Of a stretch of DNA of 64,000 bases, positions 27,128 through 36,078 are shown piece after piece (positions within the stretch are counted from its first letter, which is position 1; every line of letters begins with the position of its first letter). The translations under genes and the position numbers were made by a program. The stretch covers positions 8,308,001 to 8,372,000 of the forward strand of contig NZ_JADBEK010000001.1 of the NCBI RefSeq assembly GCF_014873145.1. The letters run 5' to 3'. The notes under the pieces are model-generated. The model worked only from the letters and a program-made list of their open reading frames with translations. It made no database searches and was not told the origin of the DNA. The DNA is from Nonomuraea angiospora (lineage in GTDB: Bacteria; Actinomycetota; Actinomycetes; Streptosporangiales; Streptosporangiaceae).

Positions 27128-27982
27128 ATGTCCGTTGACATCTCCTCCTCCGCCGATGCCGCGACCCAGCGGAAGGCCCGGCTGTTCCGTGCCCTGAGCA
27201 CCGAGCCCGTGCTGGTGCTGCCCAATGCCTGGGACGCCGCCAGTGCGGCCGTCATCGCCGCGGCCGGCGCCACGGCGATCGCCACGACCAGCGGTGGCGT
27301 CTCGTGGTCGCTGGGCCGCGGGGACGGGCAGCGGCTGAGCCGGGACGAGATGGCGCAGGCCGCGCGGCGCATCGTGGACTCCGTCGACGTGCCGGTGACG
27401 GTGGACGTGGAGGGAGGGTACGGGCCGGACCCGGCGGATGTCGCCGCGACCGTGCGGGCGGTGGTCGAGGCCGGGGCGGTGGGCGTCAATCTGGAGGACT
27501 CCACGGCCGTCGGCGGTCCTCTGTTCGACGTGGCCGAGCAGAGTGCCAGGCTGCGCGCCGCCAGGGAGGCCGCGGCCGCCGCGGCCCTGCCGGAGCTGTT
27601 CGTCAACGCCCGTACCGACGTCTTCCTGTTCGGGATCGGTGCGGCGGACGGGCGGTTGGGCGAGGTGCTGGAGCGTGCGGAGGCCTACGCGGAGGCGGGA
27701 GCCGACGGCATCTTCGTCCCGGGCCTGCTCGACCTGGACACGCTGAACACCCTCTGCGCGGCATCGCCGCTGCCGGTCAACGCGATGGCCGTCGCGGGCG
27801 GACCGAGCGTCAGCGAGCTCGCGCAGGCCGGGGTACGCCGGGTCAGCCTGGGCACCGGCCTGGCCCAGGCCGCCTACGCCGCGACCCGGAGGGCCGCAGC
27901 GGAGCTGCTGGGCACGGGCGGTCTCACGGCGCTGGACGGCTCACTGGACTTCAGCGAACTCGACGTCCTGTTCCGCCGCTGA
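27128..27982 (+). CDS. Isocitrate lyase/PEP mutase superfamily enzyme
   Basis: The 284-residue TIM-barrel enzyme shows the superfamily's metal and substrate residues: VDVEGGYGPD with Asp93 and Glu95, NLEDS with Glu123, and FVNARTDVFLFG. Relatives act on C-C or C-P bonds of 2-oxo acids (oxaloacetate decarboxylase, methylisocitrate lyase, PEP mutase). The KKCGH-type loop of true isocitrate lyases is absent, so an oxaloacetate-decarboxylase or petal-death-like hydrolase role is likelier. The ATG at 27128 gives MSVDISSSADAA; the frame is open 66 nt upstream without a better start. The divergent ArsR-type gene probably regulates it. Confidence 0.82.
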   Translation: MSVDISSSADAATQRKARLFRALSTEPVLVLPNAWDAASAAVIAAAGATAIATTSGGVSWSLGRGDGQRLSRDEMAQAARRIVDSVDVPVTVDVEGGYGPDPADVAATVRAVVEAGAVGVNLEDSTAVGGPLFDVAEQSARLRAAREAAAAAALPELFVNARTDVFLFGIGAADGRLGEVLERAEAYAEAGADGIFVPGLLDLDTLNTLCAASPLPVNAMAVAGGPSVSELAQAGVRRVSLGTGLAQAAYAATRRAAAELLGTGGLTALDGSLDFSELDVLFRR

Positions 27983-28010
27983 TCGAGAAGCCGGAGGGCG
28001 GCCGCGTCAG

Positions 28011-29426
28011 CTAGGACAGGAGGGAGTCGTACGCGACCGAGTGCTGCTGCCCCGACATGAAGGACAGGAACTGCCTGACGAAGGCGCTGCGCGAGTAGGC
28101 GTCGGCTCCGCCGGTCAGATCGCGGCGGAAGGCCGTGCGGAACAGGCTCTGGAACTCCTGCGCGTCGATCGCCTGGTCGTCGTCGGCGTCCGTGACGTCG
28201 AACAGCACGTCGGCGACCTTGATCAGCCCTGCGCCGGGCAGAGAGACGGCCGTGGCGGCGTATTCCTGCCGGGTGACGCGCCCGTCGTCGTCGGCGTCGA
28301 GATTGGTCTGCAGCTCCCGCCACCAGGCGGCGTAGGCGTCGTAGAGCCGCTCCTCGTCCTGCTCGTCCAGGTCGAGCCGGGTGGCGAGCTCTCTTGCCAT
28401 GGCCGCCAGGTCGGGCCAGGTGAGGTAGCCGTCGCCCGTCTGGTCCAGGACCTCGGCGAAGAACCGGTCGGCCGAGCGGGTGGTCGGGCTGACGTCGTCG
28501 GGGGCCGGGGTGACGAGCCTGACCAGGGCCGCGGCCTGGCCGGCCTTGCGGCGTACGGTCTGCCATGGTCCGGAACCACCGGTGTGGCTGGGATCCAGCA
28601 GGCTCACGAGCGAGTTGACGTCCACCCAGCCGTCCGGGAGCACGCGGCTGGCGAAGCCGGCGGTGAGGTAGGCCCCGTGCATGAGCGTCCGCGCACCGGG
28701 GAGGTCGGGCAGGGCGACCCGGCGGCAGAAGGGCTCCGGCAGCGACGCGATGGTGATCGCGGCGGCCACCGGGCCCGCCACGCTCCGGCCCGCGGCCCAC
28801 ACCGCGGGATGGTTGCGCAGCAGGGGCGGCGCGGGCACGTTGGCGAAGAGCCGGTAGAGGATGACCCGCACGGCCTCGGTGCTCTCCAGGCGGTGGGTGA
28901 TCATGTCGTCGTAGTAGGCCCAGAACTCCAGCAAGGTGGCGGGGAGCTGGTCGCTGTCGCCCTCGATCAGGGCCAGGAACGCGCGGAACTCGGCGTAGAG
29001 CTGCTCCAGCGCGGGCCGGTCGAGCGACTCGCCGCTCAGCCGGTACATCGTCACCGTCGACTCGAACAGGGTCGCCACCACCCAGGCGCGTGCCCCGGCG
29101 TCCGTGCCGTCGTAGTGGCGGCCCTGCGGGTCGGTGCCCGAGATGCGGGCGTGCAGGCGGTTGAGGCGGGTCGCCTCCCGGGTGCGAACGTGCTGGTCGG
29201 GGTCGAGCACGCGCTGCATGCTCACCAACGTGTTGCGCAGCCGCCGCCACGGATGCGTCACGAACGACGAGTTTTCGATCAGCGCGGCGCCGATCTGCGG
29301 GTGCGCGGCCTCCAGGACCGTGGCGCGGGTCACCGCGAGGCCCCACCGCGCGTCGTTGACGAGGCGGCGCAGCATCGAGTCCGGCCCGAAGGCGTCCACG
29401 GCCTGCTCCGCGGTGCTCTGGCTCAT
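28011..29426 (-). CDS. MpaB/Lcp-type (ex-DUF2236) oxygenase fused to EF-hand domain
   Basis: The first 280 of 471 residues match the MpaB/rubber-oxygenase family: LEAAHPQIGAALIENSSF, HPWRRLRNTLVSMQRVL, LNRLHARISGTDPQGR, AWVVATLFESTVTMYRL. Members are haem or metal oxygenases that cleave isoprenoid chains (MpaB, Lcp) along with many uncharacterised ones. Residues 320-471 form a calcium-binding module with three canonical loops: D328-QTGDGYLTWPD, D377-ADDDGRVTRQE and D413-ADDDQAIDAQE. No signal peptide is seen, so it is probably cytoplasmic. Its ATG lies in a 4-nt overlap with the upstream cis-prenyltransferase gene, so the two are coupled. The domain calls are firm; the substrate is unknown. 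Confidence 0.8.
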   Translation of the reverse strand: MSQSTAEQAVDAFGPDSMLRRLVNDARWGLAVTRATVLEAAHPQIGAALIENSSFVTHPWRRLRNTLVSMQRVLDPDQHVRTREATRLNRLHARISGTDPQGRHYDGTDAGARAWVVATLFESTVTMYRLSGESLDRPALEQLYAEFRAFLALIEGDSDQLPATLLEFWAYYDDMITHRLESTEAVRVILYRLFANVPAPPLLRNHPAVWAAGRSVAGPVAAAITIASLPEPFCRRVALPDLPGARTLMHGAYLTAGFASRVLPDGWVDVNSLVSLLDPSHTGGSGPWQTVRRKAGQAAALVRLVTPAPDDVSPTTRSADRFFAEVLDQTGDGYLTWPDLAAMARELATRLDLDEQDEERLYDAYAAWWRELQTNLDADDDGRVTRQEYAATAVSLPGAGLIKVADVLFDVTDADDDQAIDAQEFQSLFRTAFRRDLTGGADAYSRSAFVRQFLSFMSGQQHSVAYDSLLS

Positions 29427-30160
29427 CGAGGTTCCTCTCCCGTGGTGGCGCTCGACTGGCGGACGTCGCCGAACCGGCGCTGGCGCGATCGGTAGGCGTC
29501 AAGGCATTCCCAGAGGTGGGTCGCGCGGAAGTCCGGCCACAGCACCTGCGGGAAGACCCATTCGGCGTAGGCCACCTGCCAGAGCATGAAGTTGGAGATG
29601 CGCTGCTCTCCGGAGGTGCGGATGACCAGGTCCACGTCCGGCGTGTCGGAGTAGGGGAGATGCCGGGCGAAGGTGGCCTCGGTGACCTGCTCGGCCGGCA
29701 CGTCGGCGCGGATCAGCGAGCGGGCGGCCTCCACGATGTCGCGGCGCCCTCCGTGGTCGAAGGCGACCGTCAGCGTCATCTGCCTGTTGTCGCTGGTGAG
29801 CGTCATCAGGTCGGTGATGTCCCGGACCAGGGTCGGCGGGATCCGCGGATCCGACATGCCCAGGAACCTGCACCGGACGCCCCGCGCGTGCAACGCCGGC
29901 GCGTGCTTGCGGATGGCCCGGCGCACGAGCCTCATCAGGATGTCGACCTCGCCCGCCGGCCTGCGCCAGTTTTCGGTGGAGAAGGCGTACAGGCTCAACC
30001 ACCTGATGCCGGCCGAGCGGGCCTCCTCGATGATGTCGATGACGGCGGCCTCCGCCGCCTCGTGGCCCGCGGTGCGCGGCAGCGATCGCTGCGCGGCCCA
30101 CCGCCCGTTTCCATCCATCACGCAAGCGACGTGACGCGGCAATCCGCTGACGACTTTCAT
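29423..30160 (-). CDS. Cis-prenyltransferase (UppS-like)
   Basis: This 245-residue isoprenyl transferase adds isopentenyl-diphosphate in cis. The catalytic Asp is D16 in CVMDGNGRWA; also present are LYAFSTENW, AFDHGGRRDI and the long C-terminal signature DLVIRTSGEQRISNF plus LWQVAYAEW. Two usual residues differ: RTAGHEAAEAAV replaces the common RxxGHxxG context, and FDHGGR replaces the common NYGGR. It is coupled to an isoprenoid-oxygenase-like gene, so it may be a specialised paralogue and not the housekeeping undecaprenyl enzyme. A clear promoter lies just upstream, with almost no leader. Confidence 0.88.
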   Translation of the reverse strand: MKVVSGLPRHVACVMDGNGRWAAQRSLPRTAGHEAAEAAVIDIIEEARSAGIRWLSLYAFSTENWRRPAGEVDILMRLVRRAIRKHAPALHARGVRCRFLGMSDPRIPPTLVRDITDLMTLTSDNRQMTLTVAFDHGGRRDIVEAARSLIRADVPAEQVTEATFARHLPYSDTPDVDLVIRTSGEQRISNFMLWQVAYAEWVFPQVLWPDFRATHLWECLDAYRSRQRRFGDVRQSSATTGEEPR

Positions 30161-30171
30161 AGCTGAGCGTG

Positions 30172-30199
30172 ACTATATCATTACTCAAAGTGTTGTCGA
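30172..30199 (-). promoter_or_regulatory. Promoter of the cis-prenyltransferase operon
   Basis: On the minus strand TCGACA (30199-30194), a 16-nt spacer and TATAGT (30177-30172) form a good housekeeping-sigma promoter. Transcription would begin near 30165, about 5 nt before the ATG at 30160. With no Shine-Dalgarno sequence present, the transcript should be nearly leaderless. Confidence 0.6.
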
Positions 30200-30207
30200 G
30201 CGTGGGC

Positions 30208-31404
30208 TCACTGCGACCAGTGCGAATAGGGCTCCCGCAACTGCGTCTCGAGGATCTCGGTCGCTGACTCCTTGGGCAGGATCGGGTCCTGGAACGACTC
30301 CTTCCAGGGGTTGTCGAACAGCCAGGAGAACGGCTCGTCCTTCTCCAGGCGGTCGAAGTACGTGCCCTGTTCGTCGTGATAAAGGTCGACGTATTCGACG
30401 TAGGCGATCTGGGGCAGCAGCAGCTCGGCGTCCGCGGGGATCAGGTCGTAGCAGACGCCCATGTTCTGGTTGAACTCGCGCAGATACTGGCGGGCGCGGT
30501 CGTCGTCCTCGTCGTCCTCGCCGCCGGCCCACTCCCACAGGTCGTCGATCTCGAAGTCGCCGACGGCCTTGGCGCAGTTTTCCTTGTATCGCCAGTAGAG
30601 CTCGCCGAACGTCAGGAGCACGTCGCCCGTCCGGCCCGCGTCGTAGGCGAGCGTCTTCGAGCTGGCGTGCAGCATCCTGAGCGCCTGCTGGCACAGCTCC
30701 GCCGCCTCGCTGCCCCACACCTGGGCCAACCCCTTCGAGTGCCCCTCGATCGCGGCCGCCGCGCCGGCCATCCGGCCGGCGAAGTCGTGGAGCACCACGC
30801 CGAGGTCCAGCAGGCGTTCCGGATGGCTCCGGTCGAAGAACTTCCTGATGCCGGCCGCGCTGTTGGCCGAGACGTCCTCCTCGCGCCACGGCTCGGTGTC
30901 GGACGGAGGCCGGGAGTGACCCGGATCCCGCTGGCCGTGGACGGCTTTCCGCAGCTTGTCCAGACGGCGGTGGAGGATGCCCTCGGCCGTGTCGTAGTTC
31001 ATGGCGGCGACGTACACCAGCTGGCCGAAGCCCTCGTACGACTCGTGGAACGCCTCTGACCGTTCCTTGAGGCCGGAGAACTTCCGGTTGAGCGCGGTCA
31101 TCATCTTGTCGGCGGACGTCCATGCGCCGTCCAGATCGGTGCGCATGACCGCGACGGGGGAGTAGGCGCCGAAGTCGGTCCCCCAGACGTAGTGCCCGAA
31201 GGCCGAGCTCGGCATGCGGTCCGAATGCGTGCCGTCGCTGACGGAGGTCTTCGCGCCGAGGGCGTCGATGACCATCTGCTTCGAGCGCTTCTTGAGCTCC
31301 GCCCGGTCGACGACTATCCCGCGCTCAGGCGATGGCCATGATCGGTCCAGCTCAAGCCCGTCGTGCCACTGCCGCCAGGGTTCGGAGCTCGGGGGGTCCT
31401 GCAT
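30208..31404 (-). CDS. Hypothetical protein with two WXG100-like helical segments
   Basis: I do not recognise this 398-residue protein by name. Two helix-rich segments resemble WXG100/ESX helical hairpins: WTSADKMMTALNRKFSGLKE at about 95-115 and EGHSKGLAQVWGSEAAELCQ near 220-240, the latter with a W-G-S turn. A stretch near 290-300 is almost wholly acidic (GGEDDEDDD). The C-terminus is rich in aromatic and acidic residues (FSWLFDNPWKESFQDP). It has no signal peptide. No ESX secretion genes are nearby. It is divergent from the small peptide gene at 31640 with 235 nt between starts. Secretion or toxin function is only a possibility. Confidence 0.55.
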   Translation of the reverse strand: MQDPPSSEPWRQWHDGLELDRSWPSPERGIVVDRAELKKRSKQMVIDALGAKTSVSDGTHSDRMPSSAFGHYVWGTDFGAYSPVAVMRTDLDGAWTSADKMMTALNRKFSGLKERSEAFHESYEGFGQLVYVAAMNYDTAEGILHRRLDKLRKAVHGQRDPGHSRPPSDTEPWREEDVSANSAAGIRKFFDRSHPERLLDLGVVLHDFAGRMAGAAAAIEGHSKGLAQVWGSEAAELCQQALRMLHASSKTLAYDAGRTGDVLLTFGELYWRYKENCAKAVGDFEIDDLWEWAGGEDDEDDDRARQYLREFNQNMGVCYDLIPADAELLLPQIAYVEYVDLYHDEQGTYFDRLEKDEPFSWLFDNPWKESFQDPILPKESATEILETQLREPYSHWSQ

Positions 31405-31639
31405 GCGCGTGTCCTTCCGGCGCCACGGGCCGATCGCGGCGGCCGGGCGCCGCCTACATACATGTTAGGCATGTCTGTAATCTTCCCGTCAAGATCGTGT
31501 AACCCCCGACTCGCCGGCTCTTCATCGTGGATCGCTCCAGGTGGCGAGGCGGTGCTGACGCAGGCGGTTTTCATGCGGAGATCATGCGCCCCGTGATCGA
31601 TCGTGGTCAGTGACGACATTCGCGCTACGGAGGTTACGC

Positions 31640-31726
31640 ATGAAGCACATCCGACACGCAGCCGTCCGCCTCGTGGGCCGGGTCCGCATGGGAGGCATGT
31701 ACACCTACTGGAACTTCTTCAACTAA
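31640..31726 (+). CDS. Probable RiPP precursor peptide for the adjacent P450
   Basis: A 28-codon gene with a proper ribosome site (GGAGG at 31629-31633, 6 nt before the ATG) lies 12 nt upstream of a P450 gene. Residues 1-16 are basic (four Arg, two His, one Lys), a leader-like segment. They are followed by Met-Gly-Gly-Met and the aromatic tail YTYWNFFN (residues 21-28: Tyr21, Tyr23, Trp24, Phe26, Phe27). Short precursors ending in aromatic cores next to one P450 define biarylitide, cittilin and atropopeptide (tryptorubin) clusters, where the P450 makes C-C, C-N or C-O links between side chains. The core could start after Gly19 or Met20. No protease or exporter is adjacent. Call by context; I do not recognise the exact sequence. 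Confidence 0.75.
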   Translation: MKHIRHAAVRLVGRVRMGGMYTYWNFFN

Positions 31727-31738
31727 GAGGGCCGACGA

Positions 31739-33037
31739 GTGACGCATGCACCTGGTTCGGAGCGGCCCCCCGGGCCCCGAGGGCACTGGTTGTTCGGCAA
31801 CACCGAGGAGTACGACCAGGACAGGAACGGCTTCCTGGAGCGGTGTCACCGTGAATACGGGGACGTCTTCTCGTTCGACGCCCGCACCATCGTGGTGTCC
31901 TCACCGGATCAGGTGCATGCGTTGCTCACCAGGACCAACAGAGACTTCCTGGCCGAGAATTCGCCGCTGGCGGGAAGCGTGGACACCGAGCGGATGGCGG
32001 CCGACGCCGAGCTGTGGACGACGACCCGCCGCGCGGGCTGGCAGGGGCTGCACCGGAGGGTGGCGCAGGCGCACGCCGAACGGCTGCGGGAGATCTTCCT
32101 CAAGACCGTCGGTGACGGGGAGATTGACGTGCTCGCCACGATGGCCGACTTCTCCGGCCGGGCGACCGCCGACTTCTGCCTGAGCGCGGACGCGGCAGGC
32201 GTCCCGGAGACGCTGGCCGAGAACGTCGCCGCCATCGACCCCCTGTCGCGCGACTCCCTGCAGCTGCCGCCGTGGTGGCCGTCGCGCAAGGTGCGGCGCT
32301 TCGCCCGCTCCCGCAAGCGGCTCCTGGCGCTCATGACCGACATCGTGCGCCGCCGCCGGTCGGCCGGGGACTCCGCCGCCGCGCAGGATCTCCTCGGCGT
32401 GCTCCTCGCCCCGGGCGATCAGCAGCTGTCCGACCTGCAGATCGAGCGGTTCCTGCGCGGGATCATGCTGGCCGCGCTGGGCGTCCCGGCCGCCGCGCTC
32501 ACCTGGATCGTGTACGAGCTCAGCACCCGGCCCGACGTGCTGGCCCGGCTGGAGGCCGAGGCCGCGTCGGCCGGCGAGGTCCCGGTCATGGGGGACCTGC
32601 CGTACACCGAGGCGTTCGTCAAGGAGGTGCTCAGGCTCTGGCCGCCGACCTGGCTGATCGGCAGGACCGTACGTCACGGGACCGAGCTCGACGGGTGGCG
32701 TCTCAAGGCGGGGGATCAGGTGCTGTTCAGCCTGTACCGGCTGCATCGCGACCCGCGCTGGTGGTCCGACCCGGACCGGCTGGTGCCGGAACGGTGGCTG
32801 GAGCCCCACGTCGCGCCCGTCAGGCACACCTATCTGCCCTTCGGCGCCGGGCCGAGGGTGTGCGTGGGGACCCAGCTCGGCATGATGCAGCTGACCCTGG
32901 CGACGGCCTGGCTGGTCAGCGGCATGAGCCTGGCGCGGACGCGGGAGACGGAGATGGTGCCCGACTTCAGCGGTCTGCTGGTGCCGCGTGACCTGAGGGT
33001 CCGGCTGGAGCGGAAGGCGGTGCGGCAAGGCGCCTGA
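31739..33037 (+). CDS. Cytochrome P450, probable peptide side-chain cross-linking enzyme
   Basis: The 432-residue P450 starts at a GTG 12 nt behind the peptide gene. The haem loop FGAGPRVCVG puts the thiolate ligand at Cys375; the K-helix ExxR pair is Glu296/Arg299 (KEVLRLWPP); the PERW segment follows. The I-helix reads ALGVPAAALTW (residues 246-256), so the usual acid-threonine pair for oxygen activation is missing, as in some P450s that do one-electron coupling chemistry instead of hydroxylation. The N-terminus lacks a membrane anchor, so it is soluble. Its partner gene suggests aryl-aryl or aryl-amide cross-linking of the MYTYWNFFN tail. The 3' end overlaps the convergent SARP gene by 71 nt. 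The P450 call is certain; the substrate is inferred. Confidence 0.93.
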   Translation: MTHAPGSERPPGPRGHWLFGNTEEYDQDRNGFLERCHREYGDVFSFDARTIVVSSPDQVHALLTRTNRDFLAENSPLAGSVDTERMAADAELWTTTRRAGWQGLHRRVAQAHAERLREIFLKTVGDGEIDVLATMADFSGRATADFCLSADAAGVPETLAENVAAIDPLSRDSLQLPPWWPSRKVRRFARSRKRLLALMTDIVRRRRSAGDSAAAQDLLGVLLAPGDQQLSDLQIERFLRGIMLAALGVPAAALTWIVYELSTRPDVLARLEAEAASAGEVPVMGDLPYTEAFVKEVLRLWPPTWLIGRTVRHGTELDGWRLKAGDQVLFSLYRLHRDPRWWSDPDRLVPERWLEPHVAPVRHTYLPFGAGPRVCVGTQLGMMQLTLATAWLVSGMSLARTRETEMVPDFSGLLVPRDLRVRLERKAVRQGA

Positions 33038-35831
33038 GCTTCTCCTGGACGTTGCCGGCTTCGAGCGCGCGGTGCTGCTTGTGGTAGAGATCGAGCGCCC
33101 GCTGCCAGGCGTCGCGGGCGGCGGCGGGCCGGCCCGTCTCGTGGTGGAGGTCGCCGATGCGGACGAGGGTGTCGGCGCCCTGGTAGGCGTTGCCGAGCTG
33201 CTCGCGCAGGTCGAGGCACCGGTCGTAGTAGCCGAGCGCCTCATCATGCTGCCCCGTCCGGTGGGCGATGTAGCCGAGGCTGTCGAGGGTGGCGGATTCG
33301 CCGTTCAGGTCCTCGTGCTTCTGGAACAGCTCCAGAGCCTGCTCGCAGTACGACCGCGCCTGCGGGTGACGGCCCAGCTTGGCGTGGCACCAGCCGGCGG
33401 CGCTGAGCGCGTTGGCCTCCCAGAGGGGGTCCCGGAGCTCGCGCTGCAGGCGCAGGGCGTTCTCGACGTGCGGGAGCGCGCGCTCGGGCGCGCCCAGCTC
33501 CAGCCAGCAGAACCCGAGCGTGTGGCTGGTGTGCGCCTGCCCGGCGAGGTCCTCCTCCTGCTCGAACAGCTTGAACGCGAGCAGCAGGTGCTCCAGGCCG
33601 TCGTCGGCCCGGGAGTCCTGCGCGTAGGCGTACCCCAGGTACCAATGGGCGAAGGCCCGGGGGACCGGCCGCCCCAGCCGCTCGGCGGCGGCCAGGGCCG
33701 TCTCCCAGGACTGGATACGCAGCTCGTGCTGGCACCGCTTGTGGTACGTGTCCATGGCCCACGCCAGCCGCCAGACGGCCGCGTCCAGGCCCAGCCTTTC
33801 GGCGTGCCGCTGAACGGCGATGAGGCTGGACTGCTCGTCCTCGAACCACGCCCAGGCCGACGCCGCGTCCTCGAACTCCTCCCGCCCGGCCTCGCCGGAG
33901 ATCCGCCCGGCCTCGCCGGAGATCCGCGCGGCGAAGGGACGGTTGGGGTTGAGCAGCCGGTCGCCGGCGCACGCGGTGACCACGTAGGCGTCGACCAGGC
34001 GGGTCAGCGCCTCCACCCGCTCCTGCTCGGGCAGATCGGACTGCGCGCGTTCGGCGGAGTAGAGGCGGACCAGGTCATGCGTGCGGTAGTGCCCGGGGCG
34101 GTGCTGCTGGATCAGGTTGGCGGCTTCGAGGCGCCGCAGCGACACCCTGGTGCGGGAGTCGGGCAGGCCGGCGAGCGCGGCGGCCGACCGCAGGCTGATG
34201 TCCGGCCACGGCGCCAGTCCCAGCAGCGCGAACAGCCGGGCGGTGCCGGGGTGGAGTGCCTCGTACGAGGACTTGAACGCGGCCCGCAGGTCCGCGTTCA
34301 GGTCACCGGTCTGCAGGGCGTCGAGGCGGGTGGCGGGGCTGCTCAGCTCCTCGGCGAGGACCGACAGGGGAAAGCCGGGGTGCATGGCCGCGCGCGCGGA
34401 GAGCACGCTGATCGCCAGGGGGAGGCCGCCGCTGTGCTCGACGAGGGCGGCCGCGCTGTCGGGGTCCGCGCCGAGCCTCGACTCGCCCAGGTGCCGGCCG
34501 AGCAGGCGGCGCGTCTCGGCGGGCGTGAGGGCGTCCAGGCCGATCAGGCTCGCGCCGCGGGTGGCGTTCAGGCCCGGGAGGCGGTTGCGGCTGGTGACCA
34601 CGACGACGCAGCCGGGGCTGCCGGGCAGCAGCGGCTCGACCTGGGCCACGTCGCGGGCGTTGTCGAGGACGACGAGCAGGCGGCGGTCGGCGACCAGCGA
34701 CCGGTAGAGCCCGGCCTGGGCCTCCTCCCCGGCCGGGACGGCCGCCGCCGGGACACCGAGGGAGCCGAGGAAATGGCGCAGCGCCACATGGGCCGGCAGG
34801 GGGTCGCTGCCCGGGTCGAACCCGTGGAGGTTGACGTAGAGCTGGCCGTCGGGGAAGAGGTCGATGGTGTCGTGGGCCCAGTGCAGGGCCAGCGAGGTCT
34901 TCCCCATTCCCCCGGTGGCGCTGATCGCGGCGATGGCCACGCTGTTCCTGGTCCGGTCGCGGGCGAGGCGGTCCAGCTCGGCGCGCTCGCGCTCGCGGCC
35001 GACGAAGTGCGGTGGCGGGGCGGGTAGCTGCCGGGGGATCGGCGAGGCCGCCGGACGCGGCTGGGGTTCGGGCGTGCTGTCGGAGGTGAGGATCCGCTGG
35101 TGGAGCTGTTGCAGCCCGTTTTCGGGCTCCAGCCCCAGCTCCTCGGTGATCCGTTCGCGCAGTCTCCGGTAGACCGCCAGGGCGTCGGCGCGCCTGCCGC
35201 TGCGGTGCAGCGCGAGCATGAGCTGGCCGTGTGCCGACTCGCGCAGGGGATGGTCCGCGACGACCGCGGTCAGCTCGGTGACGGCTTCGGCGTGCCTGCC
35301 CGCCGCGAGCATGGCCGAGCCCCGCTCCTCCACCGCTTCCAGCCGCAGCTCCTCCAGCCTGGCCACTTCCGCCTGGACGAAGGAGCCGTCGATCCCCACC
35401 AGCGGCGCCCCGTGCCAGAGGCTCAGCGCCTCGTCGTAGCGGGTCACCGCGGTCTCCGGGTCGCCCGCGGCCGCCGCCTTGCGGGCCCGCGCCACCCCGT
35501 CGAGGAACCTGGACAGGTCGAGCTGGCCGGGTGCCAGCCGCACGACGTACCCGGGCCGCTGCGTGCGGATCAGCTCGTCCCCCGCGGCGGCGCACGTCTT
35601 CCTGAGGTCGGAGATCAGCATCCTGACGCGCGAGGAAGGGGAACTCGGCAGCGGTTCGCCCCACAGCGACTCCGCCAGCCGCTGGACCGACACCACGCGG
35701 TTGGCGCTCAGCAGCAGGATCGTCAGCAACGCCCCCTGCTTGCCGGTCAGGACGACGGATCCGCTCCCGGTCTGGAGCTCCACCGGTCCGAGAAGGCGGA
35801 ACCTGGCCCGCGTAAGACCTTCAGCACTCAC
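32967..35831 (-). CDS. SARP-type transcriptional regulator with NB-ARC and TPR domains (AfsR-like)
   Basis: This 954-residue regulator has an N-terminal OmpR-type winged helix (FRLLGPVELQTGSGSVVLTG, then LAESLWGEPLPSSPSSRVRM), a bacterial transcriptional activator domain to about residue 240, an NB-ARC ATPase with Walker A ATGGMGKTSLAL near residue 305 and Walker B LLVVLDNARD, and C-terminal tetratricopeptide repeats from about 650 on. The start is the GTG at 35831, which has GGGAGG 7 nt upstream; an in-frame ATG 72 nt earlier is less likely. SARPs activate antibiotic-type pathways. It faces the P450 gene and overlaps it by 71 nt, so it is a candidate regulator of the peptide cluster, but a global role as in AfsR is possible. 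Residues near 645 show an exact GEAGRISGEAGR duplication. Confidence 0.93.
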   Translation of the reverse strand: MSAEGLTRARFRLLGPVELQTGSGSVVLTGKQGALLTILLLSANRVVSVQRLAESLWGEPLPSSPSSRVRMLISDLRKTCAAAGDELIRTQRPGYVVRLAPGQLDLSRFLDGVARARKAAAAGDPETAVTRYDEALSLWHGAPLVGIDGSFVQAEVARLEELRLEAVEERGSAMLAAGRHAEAVTELTAVVADHPLRESAHGQLMLALHRSGRRADALAVYRRLRERITEELGLEPENGLQQLHQRILTSDSTPEPQPRPAASPIPRQLPAPPPHFVGRERERAELDRLARDRTRNSVAIAAISATGGMGKTSLALHWAHDTIDLFPDGQLYVNLHGFDPGSDPLPAHVALRHFLGSLGVPAAAVPAGEEAQAGLYRSLVADRRLLVVLDNARDVAQVEPLLPGSPGCVVVVTSRNRLPGLNATRGASLIGLDALTPAETRRLLGRHLGESRLGADPDSAAALVEHSGGLPLAISVLSARAAMHPGFPLSVLAEELSSPATRLDALQTGDLNADLRAAFKSSYEALHPGTARLFALLGLAPWPDISLRSAAALAGLPDSRTRVSLRRLEAANLIQQHRPGHYRTHDLVRLYSAERAQSDLPEQERVEALTRLVDAYVVTACAGDRLLNPNRPFAARISGEAGRISGEAGREEFEDAASAWAWFEDEQSSLIAVQRHAERLGLDAAVWRLAWAMDTYHKRCQHELRIQSWETALAAAERLGRPVPRAFAHWYLGYAYAQDSRADDGLEHLLLAFKLFEQEEDLAGQAHTSHTLGFCWLELGAPERALPHVENALRLQRELRDPLWEANALSAAGWCHAKLGRHPQARSYCEQALELFQKHEDLNGESATLDSLGYIAHRTGQHDEALGYYDRCLDLREQLGNAYQGADTLVRIGDLHHETGRPAAARDAWQRALDLYHKQHRALEAGNVQEKLRRLAAPPSAPAGPSGHAAPADR

Positions 35832-36078
35832 CGGCGACCTCCCGCGGAACCAGCTCCCCGAGGTGAGGATAGTCGAGGCTTGATCACCGCGCCGGATTCG
35901 CATTTCGCAATTGGCGAGGCGCGGCTGCCGCCGGACCTGCCGTGTTTACTTCGCTGTCATCCGGATCTTTCATTATGAAATGAGTACGGCGCAGGCCGAT
36001 GCCGGCCGCTGAATCACCGTCCAACCATGAAACCACAGGTGGACAGGGGGATTCGGGCGGCAGAAAACGGAGGTATGC

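Follow-up and report, generated by a model that had tools for sequence, protein, structure and literature searches.

The locus

The window, that is the whole 64,000-nucleotide stretch of Nonomuraea angiospora DNA that was analysed, belongs to a 13.09-Mb genome held in a single contig. It carries a very short gene, a cytochrome P450 gene, a convergent regulatory gene and, ahead of the short gene, a set of direct repeats (Table 1).

Table 1. Position of the genes and sites of the cassette within the window
Feature	Position	Strand	Details
Putative SARP-binding box, three heptamers	31560..31588	+	GCAGGCG-N4-TCATGCG-N4-TCATGCG, 11-bp period
Ribosome-binding site GGAGG of the precursor gene	31629..31633	+	six bases ahead of the ATG
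Precursor peptide gene	31640..31726	+	ATG at 31640, TAA ending at 31726; 28 aa
Cytochrome P450, putative cross-linking enzyme	31739..33037	+	GTG start; 432 aa
AfsR-like large SARP, proposed pathway regulator	32967..35903	-	978 aa; DNA-binding, BTAD, NB-ARC and TPR domains in that order

Read as an open reading frame, the short gene encodes the peptide MKHIRHAAVRLVGRVRMGGMYTYWNFFN (28 aa), which is divided, at a provisional boundary, into a leader, MKHIRHAAVRLVGRVRMGG, and the core region MYTYWNFFN. The final eight residues, YTYWNFFN, include five aromatic ones (Y21, Y23, W24, F26 and F27). The GGAGG is unchanged in all four aligned sequences, those of the window and three relatives. The P450 gene begins 12 nt after the precursor stop codon, in the same frame, and its product matches Pfam p450 (E 6.7e-54). 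The first-pass annotation had described the short gene with its ribosome site, the aromatic tail and the 12-nt gap, and on these points it was correct. The three-gene cassette is real and conserved, and in this soil actinomycete it probably serves the P450-dependent stapling of aromatic side chains near the end of the 28-residue peptide.

Recurrence of the precursor peptide

Conservation of the peptide beside orthologous P450 genes, which had been put forward as a test of the pair, is found. Four relatives carry a closely similar enzyme and a similar precursor tail: the congeners G022 (P450 95% identical, tail MYTYWNFWN) and G005 (90%, MYTYWNFFN), Streptomyces sp. ADI96-02 (83%, MYTYWNIFN) and G896 of the Micromonosporaceae (82%, IYGYWNIFN). 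Across 131 loci, a short ORF bearing [MVIAL][GSA]G-x-Y towards its end is located upstream of the gene start at 53 of 63 related P450 genes and at none of 68 generic ones, the motif and the related/generic split both having been defined after the family had been seen; read on the antisense strand, these stretches hold such an ORF at 1 of the 131 loci. This count leaves out the window's own copy, 10 duplicate loci and L047 (213 nt upstream), and its generic set includes seven loci from the window's own genome. No motif ORF was found at 10 of the 63 related loci. When the own copy and the 10 duplicates are included and upstream is counted from the start of the match, 143 loci give 63 motif ORFs and one on the antisense strand, although the stretch scanned then lay largely or entirely within the gene for many of the generic loci, five of the seven own-genome ones among them. 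The two counts agree in kind. The 63 ORFs represent 49 distinct peptides, and the residue preceding the motif is Arg in 51 of the 63, Gln in 9 and Lys in 3. The evidence for the precursor gene also includes a selection of 28 peptides.

The 12-nt spacing, the common frame and the high DNA conservation would also fit a short ORF that is no substrate but acts as a translational leader or regulatory uORF for the P450 gene. However, it is the peptide itself, beyond its location, that is kept, beside P450s down to ~37–40% identity. The precursor start varies from 99 to 290 nt ahead of the P450 match, and the core types track the P450 tree. Such a role is therefore extremely improbable here. Among the five closest genomes, whose DNA is very alike, pS and pN for the leader are 0.15 and 0.08; the last nine codons show 0 synonymous and 26 non-synonymous differences over 10 pairs, with ~3 synonymous sites per pair. 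Because the subclade DNA is too alike, it holds little synonymous-site information.

Matches to the broad P450 family at the thresholds used, a group wider than the window's subclade, occur in 9 of 54 genomes of the window's genus, in at least 10 of 341 of its family, in at least 14 of 390 in the family of Saccharopolyspora shandongensis, in at least 28 of 354 Micromonosporaceae and in at least 3 of 394 Streptomycetaceae, sampled from a larger group. In all but the genus search, four to five first-look candidates were scored per genome, so that these values are lower bounds. In Saccharopolyspora subtropica (L032/L110) the family P450 looks broken, with two internal TGA codons and a match only from residue 109, and no motif ORF was found ahead of it.

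The P450 clade and its enzymes

In a maximum-likelihood tree of 68 rows, with a midpoint root and a long-branch warning outside the window's clade, the P450 falls in a clade of 15 (support 100/99). All 15 precursors of this clade read R-M-G-G-x-Y-x-Y-W; R5-H6, R10, G13, R16-M-G-G, Y21, Y23 and W24 are invariant. The window and its four relatives form a subclade of five (support 100/100) with the tail N-[FI]-[FW]-N, and core types agree with the P450 tree. The P450s at L025 and L142 are identical, and these loci may come from one species.

The haem motif FGAGPRVCVG (Cys375) is intact and the ExxR motif is E296-R299, so that the enzyme should bind haem and react. Its AlphaFold model has a normal P450 fold (pLDDT 83.8). 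Sequence and fold searches of the PDB returned generic P450s, with no RiPP P450 by name, among the 60 and 50 matches listed; the best of these is 7wzl/7wzm, CYP184A1. The closest named homologues are from Nonomuraea.

The E/D-T pair in the I helix of generic P450s serves oxygen activation for ordinary hydroxylation. In the window's enzyme, G248-V249-P250 stands in place of the generic E/D-T-T, and G-[VIT]-P is present in all 53 precursor-linked P450s. The 60 P450s without a precursor comprise 50 with [ED]-[ST]-[TS], 8 with G/A-[VA]-P, one with HTT and one with GTM. This count drops 11 loci (the duplicates and the own copy) and 19 translations shorter than 300 aa from the match start, none of which has a motif ORF. 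Under looser criteria, four of the 8 precursor-less G/A-[VA]-P enzymes have a candidate aromatic-tailed ORF and L138 is a fifth with one; L112, L139 and L140 have none even so. The signature thus follows peptide partnership well, if imperfectly, and may offer a cheap means of separating peptide-coupling from ordinary P450s. Aromatic-tailed ORFs outside the family motif are seen near the GVP/GAP-type P450s of L109 (G449), L133 (G1041) and L137 (G848), ending in LGVYHHYIY, ISVRYDWWYYHQA and MAGRNQWPPEHFYG respectively.

From general P450 knowledge, the missing acid–alcohol pair would favour radical coupling over hydroxylation. P450s of RiPP pathways also hydroxylate, according to the available part of the literature, and the enzyme might oxidise the peptide's aromatic residues without cross-linking them. 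This is quite improbable: the pair is absent from all 53 precursor-linked P450s, Tyr21, Tyr23 and Trp24 do not vary within the clade, and the nearest curated model, ApyO, is that of a cross-linking enzyme.

Relationship to known peptide families

The shandoamide and syrinamide clusters, san and syr, are reportedly the subject of a 2024 study by Liu et al. The two products come from these clusters (available part of PMC12299652) and are called cittilin-type RiPPs (available part of PMC12352619). Two loci within the clade of 15 are very probably san and syr, their P450s then being SanB and SyrB: L019 is from S. shandongensis (tail FYTYWIIAN), and L104 (tail FYVYWAIAE) matches P0031 of Saccharothrix syringae without a difference over 100 residues. 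This identification follows from the species names and the kinship of the P450s.

With probable shandoamide and syrinamide hosts in its clade, the window's pair is a relative of a known peptide kind. It has the short precursor gene directly ahead of one P450 gene; the P450 is ~55–57% identical to the probable SanB and SyrB, so named from the species, and shares their 15-row clade (100/99); and the Y-x-Y-aromatic core is present, as YxYW in 15 of 15. The probable precursors at L019 and L104, with the motif R-M-G-G-F-Y-x-Y-W, match the window peptide in leader and motif, and differ in the core (M-YTYW-NFFN here, F-YTYW-IIAN and F-YVYW-AIAE there). The first-pass annotation had taken the core to be unlike known ones; that view does not hold, since YxYW runs through the whole clade and FYTYWIIAN is found at the probable shandoamide host. 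The cassette is best read, with a probability of about 0.9, as a self-contained unit whose predicted product is a cittilin-type RiPP, cross-linked by the P450 and akin to shandoamide and the syrinamides, and it extends the family of P450-stapled peptides.

A further family, RYxYW[PF]Y, occurs in Micromonosporaceae, Streptomyces and Nonomuraea. Like the window, it has a homologous leader, mostly G-x-Y-x-Y-W and a GVP/GIP P450. Its precursors differ in having mostly V/I-S-G-R/K where the window has M-G-G-M, and in their longer tails; its P450s are ~40–48% identical. It forms a separate clade of 30 rows, most of them with an RYxYW[PF]Y core, and this clade joins the window's clade at 100/98 under the midpoint root. 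This family may include citreamide, a suggestion made from the name because a Catellatospora citrea P450 (P0043) is among the homologues.

ApyO is the best curated NCBIfam model for the P450, at 127 bits against a cut-off of 525, and also for the five relatives tested. It joins Tyr6 to Tyr8 in GRMGEGYLYD, the C-terminal end of its substrate, in which Arg1 is required, R1K giving ~8% conversion (available part of PMC13192836). The aminopyruvatide precursor ApyA reads R-M-G-x-G-Y-x-Y at the reaction site, where the window peptide has VRMGGMYTYW. In contrast to the window peptide, with 28 residues and a final Asn, ApyA has 66 residues and a C-terminal Asp, and ApyO works alongside an MNIO, a radical SAM enzyme and a methyltransferase, unlike the window's P450 (accessible portions of PMC11117315 and PMC13192836). 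The score below cut-off and the Asn end both speak against an aminopyruvatide. The R-M-G-x-x-Y-x-Y common to both suggests an ApyO-like docking, in which Arg16 would sit in an acidic pocket and Tyr21/Tyr23 at the haem; the comparison covered model scores and motifs.

The arrangement had been likened to cittilin, biarylitide and atropopeptide clusters. The cittilin comparison stands, as a precursor/P450 pair: CitA/CitB of Myxococcus comprise a 27-residue precursor and a P450, in clusters with a methyltransferase (available part of PMC8708641), which is absent among the neighbour genes scanned at the window. The cittilin core, given in the first-pass annotation as YIYY, has its counterpart in YTYW here. 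A search of 377 Myxococcota genomes found a match at E 1e-50 in at least 102; at 32 myxobacterial P450 loci (L148–L179), for which 30 of the listed matches were taken, no cittilin-like ORF was found nearby, this being defined as one of 15–45 aa in which at most eight residues follow a [YW]-x-[YW]-[YW] motif. The other two likenesses fall away. Atropopeptide precursors have a KSLK-type motif at residues 17–20 (PMC11450843) and cores beginning with Trp, as WxxW/WxxY (available part of PMC12352619). The window peptide has MGGM at 17–20, no listed KSLK variant anywhere and a core, YTYW, without a leading Trp. Biarylitide precursors are five residues long, in 18 bp (available part of PMC13417212), against 28 codons here.

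The SARP gene, the heptamer box and the shared unit

The first-pass annotation had mentioned neither the SARP gene nor the heptamer box, both of which accompany the pair. The SARP and P450 genes converge, with a 71-bp overlap at the end of the latter. The SARP scores 558 bits against the NCBIfam AfsR model, short of the cut-off of 1430, so it is AfsR-like and not AfsR. It also matches the NCBIfam model HaaT, a TPR protein from a pathway to a cyclophane RiPP (296 bits, cut-off 1125), probably through the common NB-ARC/TPR part.

SARP-binding sites consist of direct repeats at a spacing of 11 or 22 bp, and 8 bp separate the last repeat from the -10 element (available part of PMC10936776). The window's heptamers start at 31560, 31571 and 31582. 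The domain order and the 11-bp-period direct repeats are like those of AfsR-type regulation; what differs here is that the SARP gene adjoins a two-gene RiPP pair. The best heptamer triple scores 18–20 of 21 in all five unit-bearing genomes (the window, G022, G005, G896 and ADI96-02), against 9–13 of 21 at the other 59 related loci, with 400 nt upstream scanned. Across the 13.09 Mb of the genome there is a single exact TCATGCG-N4-TCATGCG, a pattern picked after being seen. When up to 3 mismatches are allowed, the window holds no excess of SARP-type doublets (8 against 9.45 expected), and there is no clear -10 element with the box.

The SARP gene adjoins the P450 gene in all four subclade relatives. 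In the Streptomyces and Micromonosporaceae stretches (~10 kb on each side), of 14 window genes compared by tblastn (E 1e-15 and >32% identity), only SARP and P450 match. A BTAD gene is present at two of 17 other long loci (L024 and L028), where it is 37–40% alike and more than 7 kb from the P450. Unlike the window, the S. shandongensis locus has no BTAD gene within ~10 kb on each side and no heptamer box (12/21), and L104 likewise has no box (best 12/21). In Streptomyces sp. ADI96-02 the SARP gene (L018, 11232–14348) aligns as two pieces ~0.2 kb apart, with perhaps an insert or a divergent linker between them.

The edges of the shared DNA were taken from homologous pieces longer than 80 bp. 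Homology begins at 31560, the first heptamer and left edge of the unit, for G022, G005 and ADI96-02, and at 31564 for G896. The first homology block or blocks end at 35889 (G022), 35845 (G005), 35799 (ADI96-02) and 35848 (G896); G022 and G005 have more shared blocks to the right. A 4.3-kb unit of box, precursor, P450 and SARP is thus present in three actinomycete families. These edges point to movement of the whole unit between families; loss from a common ancestor is the alternative. Among plasmids, none of the records spans 80% of the DNA of the unit, the best 10 of 63 records match the SARP part only, and the P450 matched 8 records, all at <60% identity. In G022 the gene order left of the unit differs from that of the window (window 27899–31560 against L144 5380–10111): a 105-bp piece resembling the 3' end of a PEP mutase gene precedes the unit, and the orf398 block lies ~3.5 kb further off.

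What is new here is that the heptamer box and the convergent AfsR-like SARP gene form a 4.3-kb unit with the precursor–P450 pair. No report of this regulator-linked unit and no relevant paper on the core strings of the family were found in a literature search that most subscription papers lay outside. Linkage to a SARP and its putative box suggests how a silent RiPP pathway might be switched on directly in the native host.

Proposed pathway and ring pattern

The pathway proposed here builds on the gene pair and its conservation, the motifs shared by the precursor clade and the P450s, the unit edges and the linkage of box and SARP. The AfsR-like SARP would bind the heptamer box and so switch on transcription of precursor and P450 as an operon. 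The leader is predicted to dock in the P450 through the invariant Arg16-Met-Gly-Gly just ahead of the core. The P450, which has no acid–alcohol pair, would then oxidise phenol and indole side chains and couple them, most likely twice (-4 Da), producing a bicycle from Tyr21-x-Tyr23-Trp24, after which host proteases may trim leader and tail. The calculated [M+H]+ of YTYWNFFN is 1154.494 without a link, 1152.479 with one, 1150.463 with two and 1148.447 with three.

The rings are most likely to lie among Tyr21, Tyr23 and Trp24, with two links. Links to Phe had also been raised as possible in the first-pass annotation. For Phe26 this is unlikely: position 26 is Ile in 9, Phe in 4 and Ser in 2 of the 15 clade members, which points rather to a hydrophobic filler. 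Position 27 is aromatic in all five subclade members (Phe in four, Trp in one); the remaining 10 sequences of the YxYW clade have no aromatic residue there. The same kind of RiPP might therefore carry a third cross-link or another change at residue 27, the tricycle being peculiar to the subclade. The i,i+3 distance from Trp24 fits known P450 linkages, from Trp C7 to His or Tyr at i+3 in the accessible part of the literature. However, Phe, present in four of the five, has no OH or NH group such as known coupling partners carry, and the five members are closely related, so that common ancestry could explain position 27. A third link is accordingly unlikely, if worth bearing in mind. The more specific proposal, that the same P450 links Trp24 to residue 27 (Trp in G022, otherwise Phe) in a tricycle and that the AfsR-like SARP, box, precursor and P450 act as a self-regulated mobile 4.3-kb cassette, is a little more doubtful.

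The natural tails FFN, FWN and IFN after YTYW or YGYW provide a test of which residues the enzyme couples. A precursor candidate at L143 (G1327), beside a GVP-type P450, carries its core unit twice, as LGGRYIHFD and MGGRYIHFDA; the ORF starts ~247 nt ahead of the P450 match and is possibly a multi-core relative.
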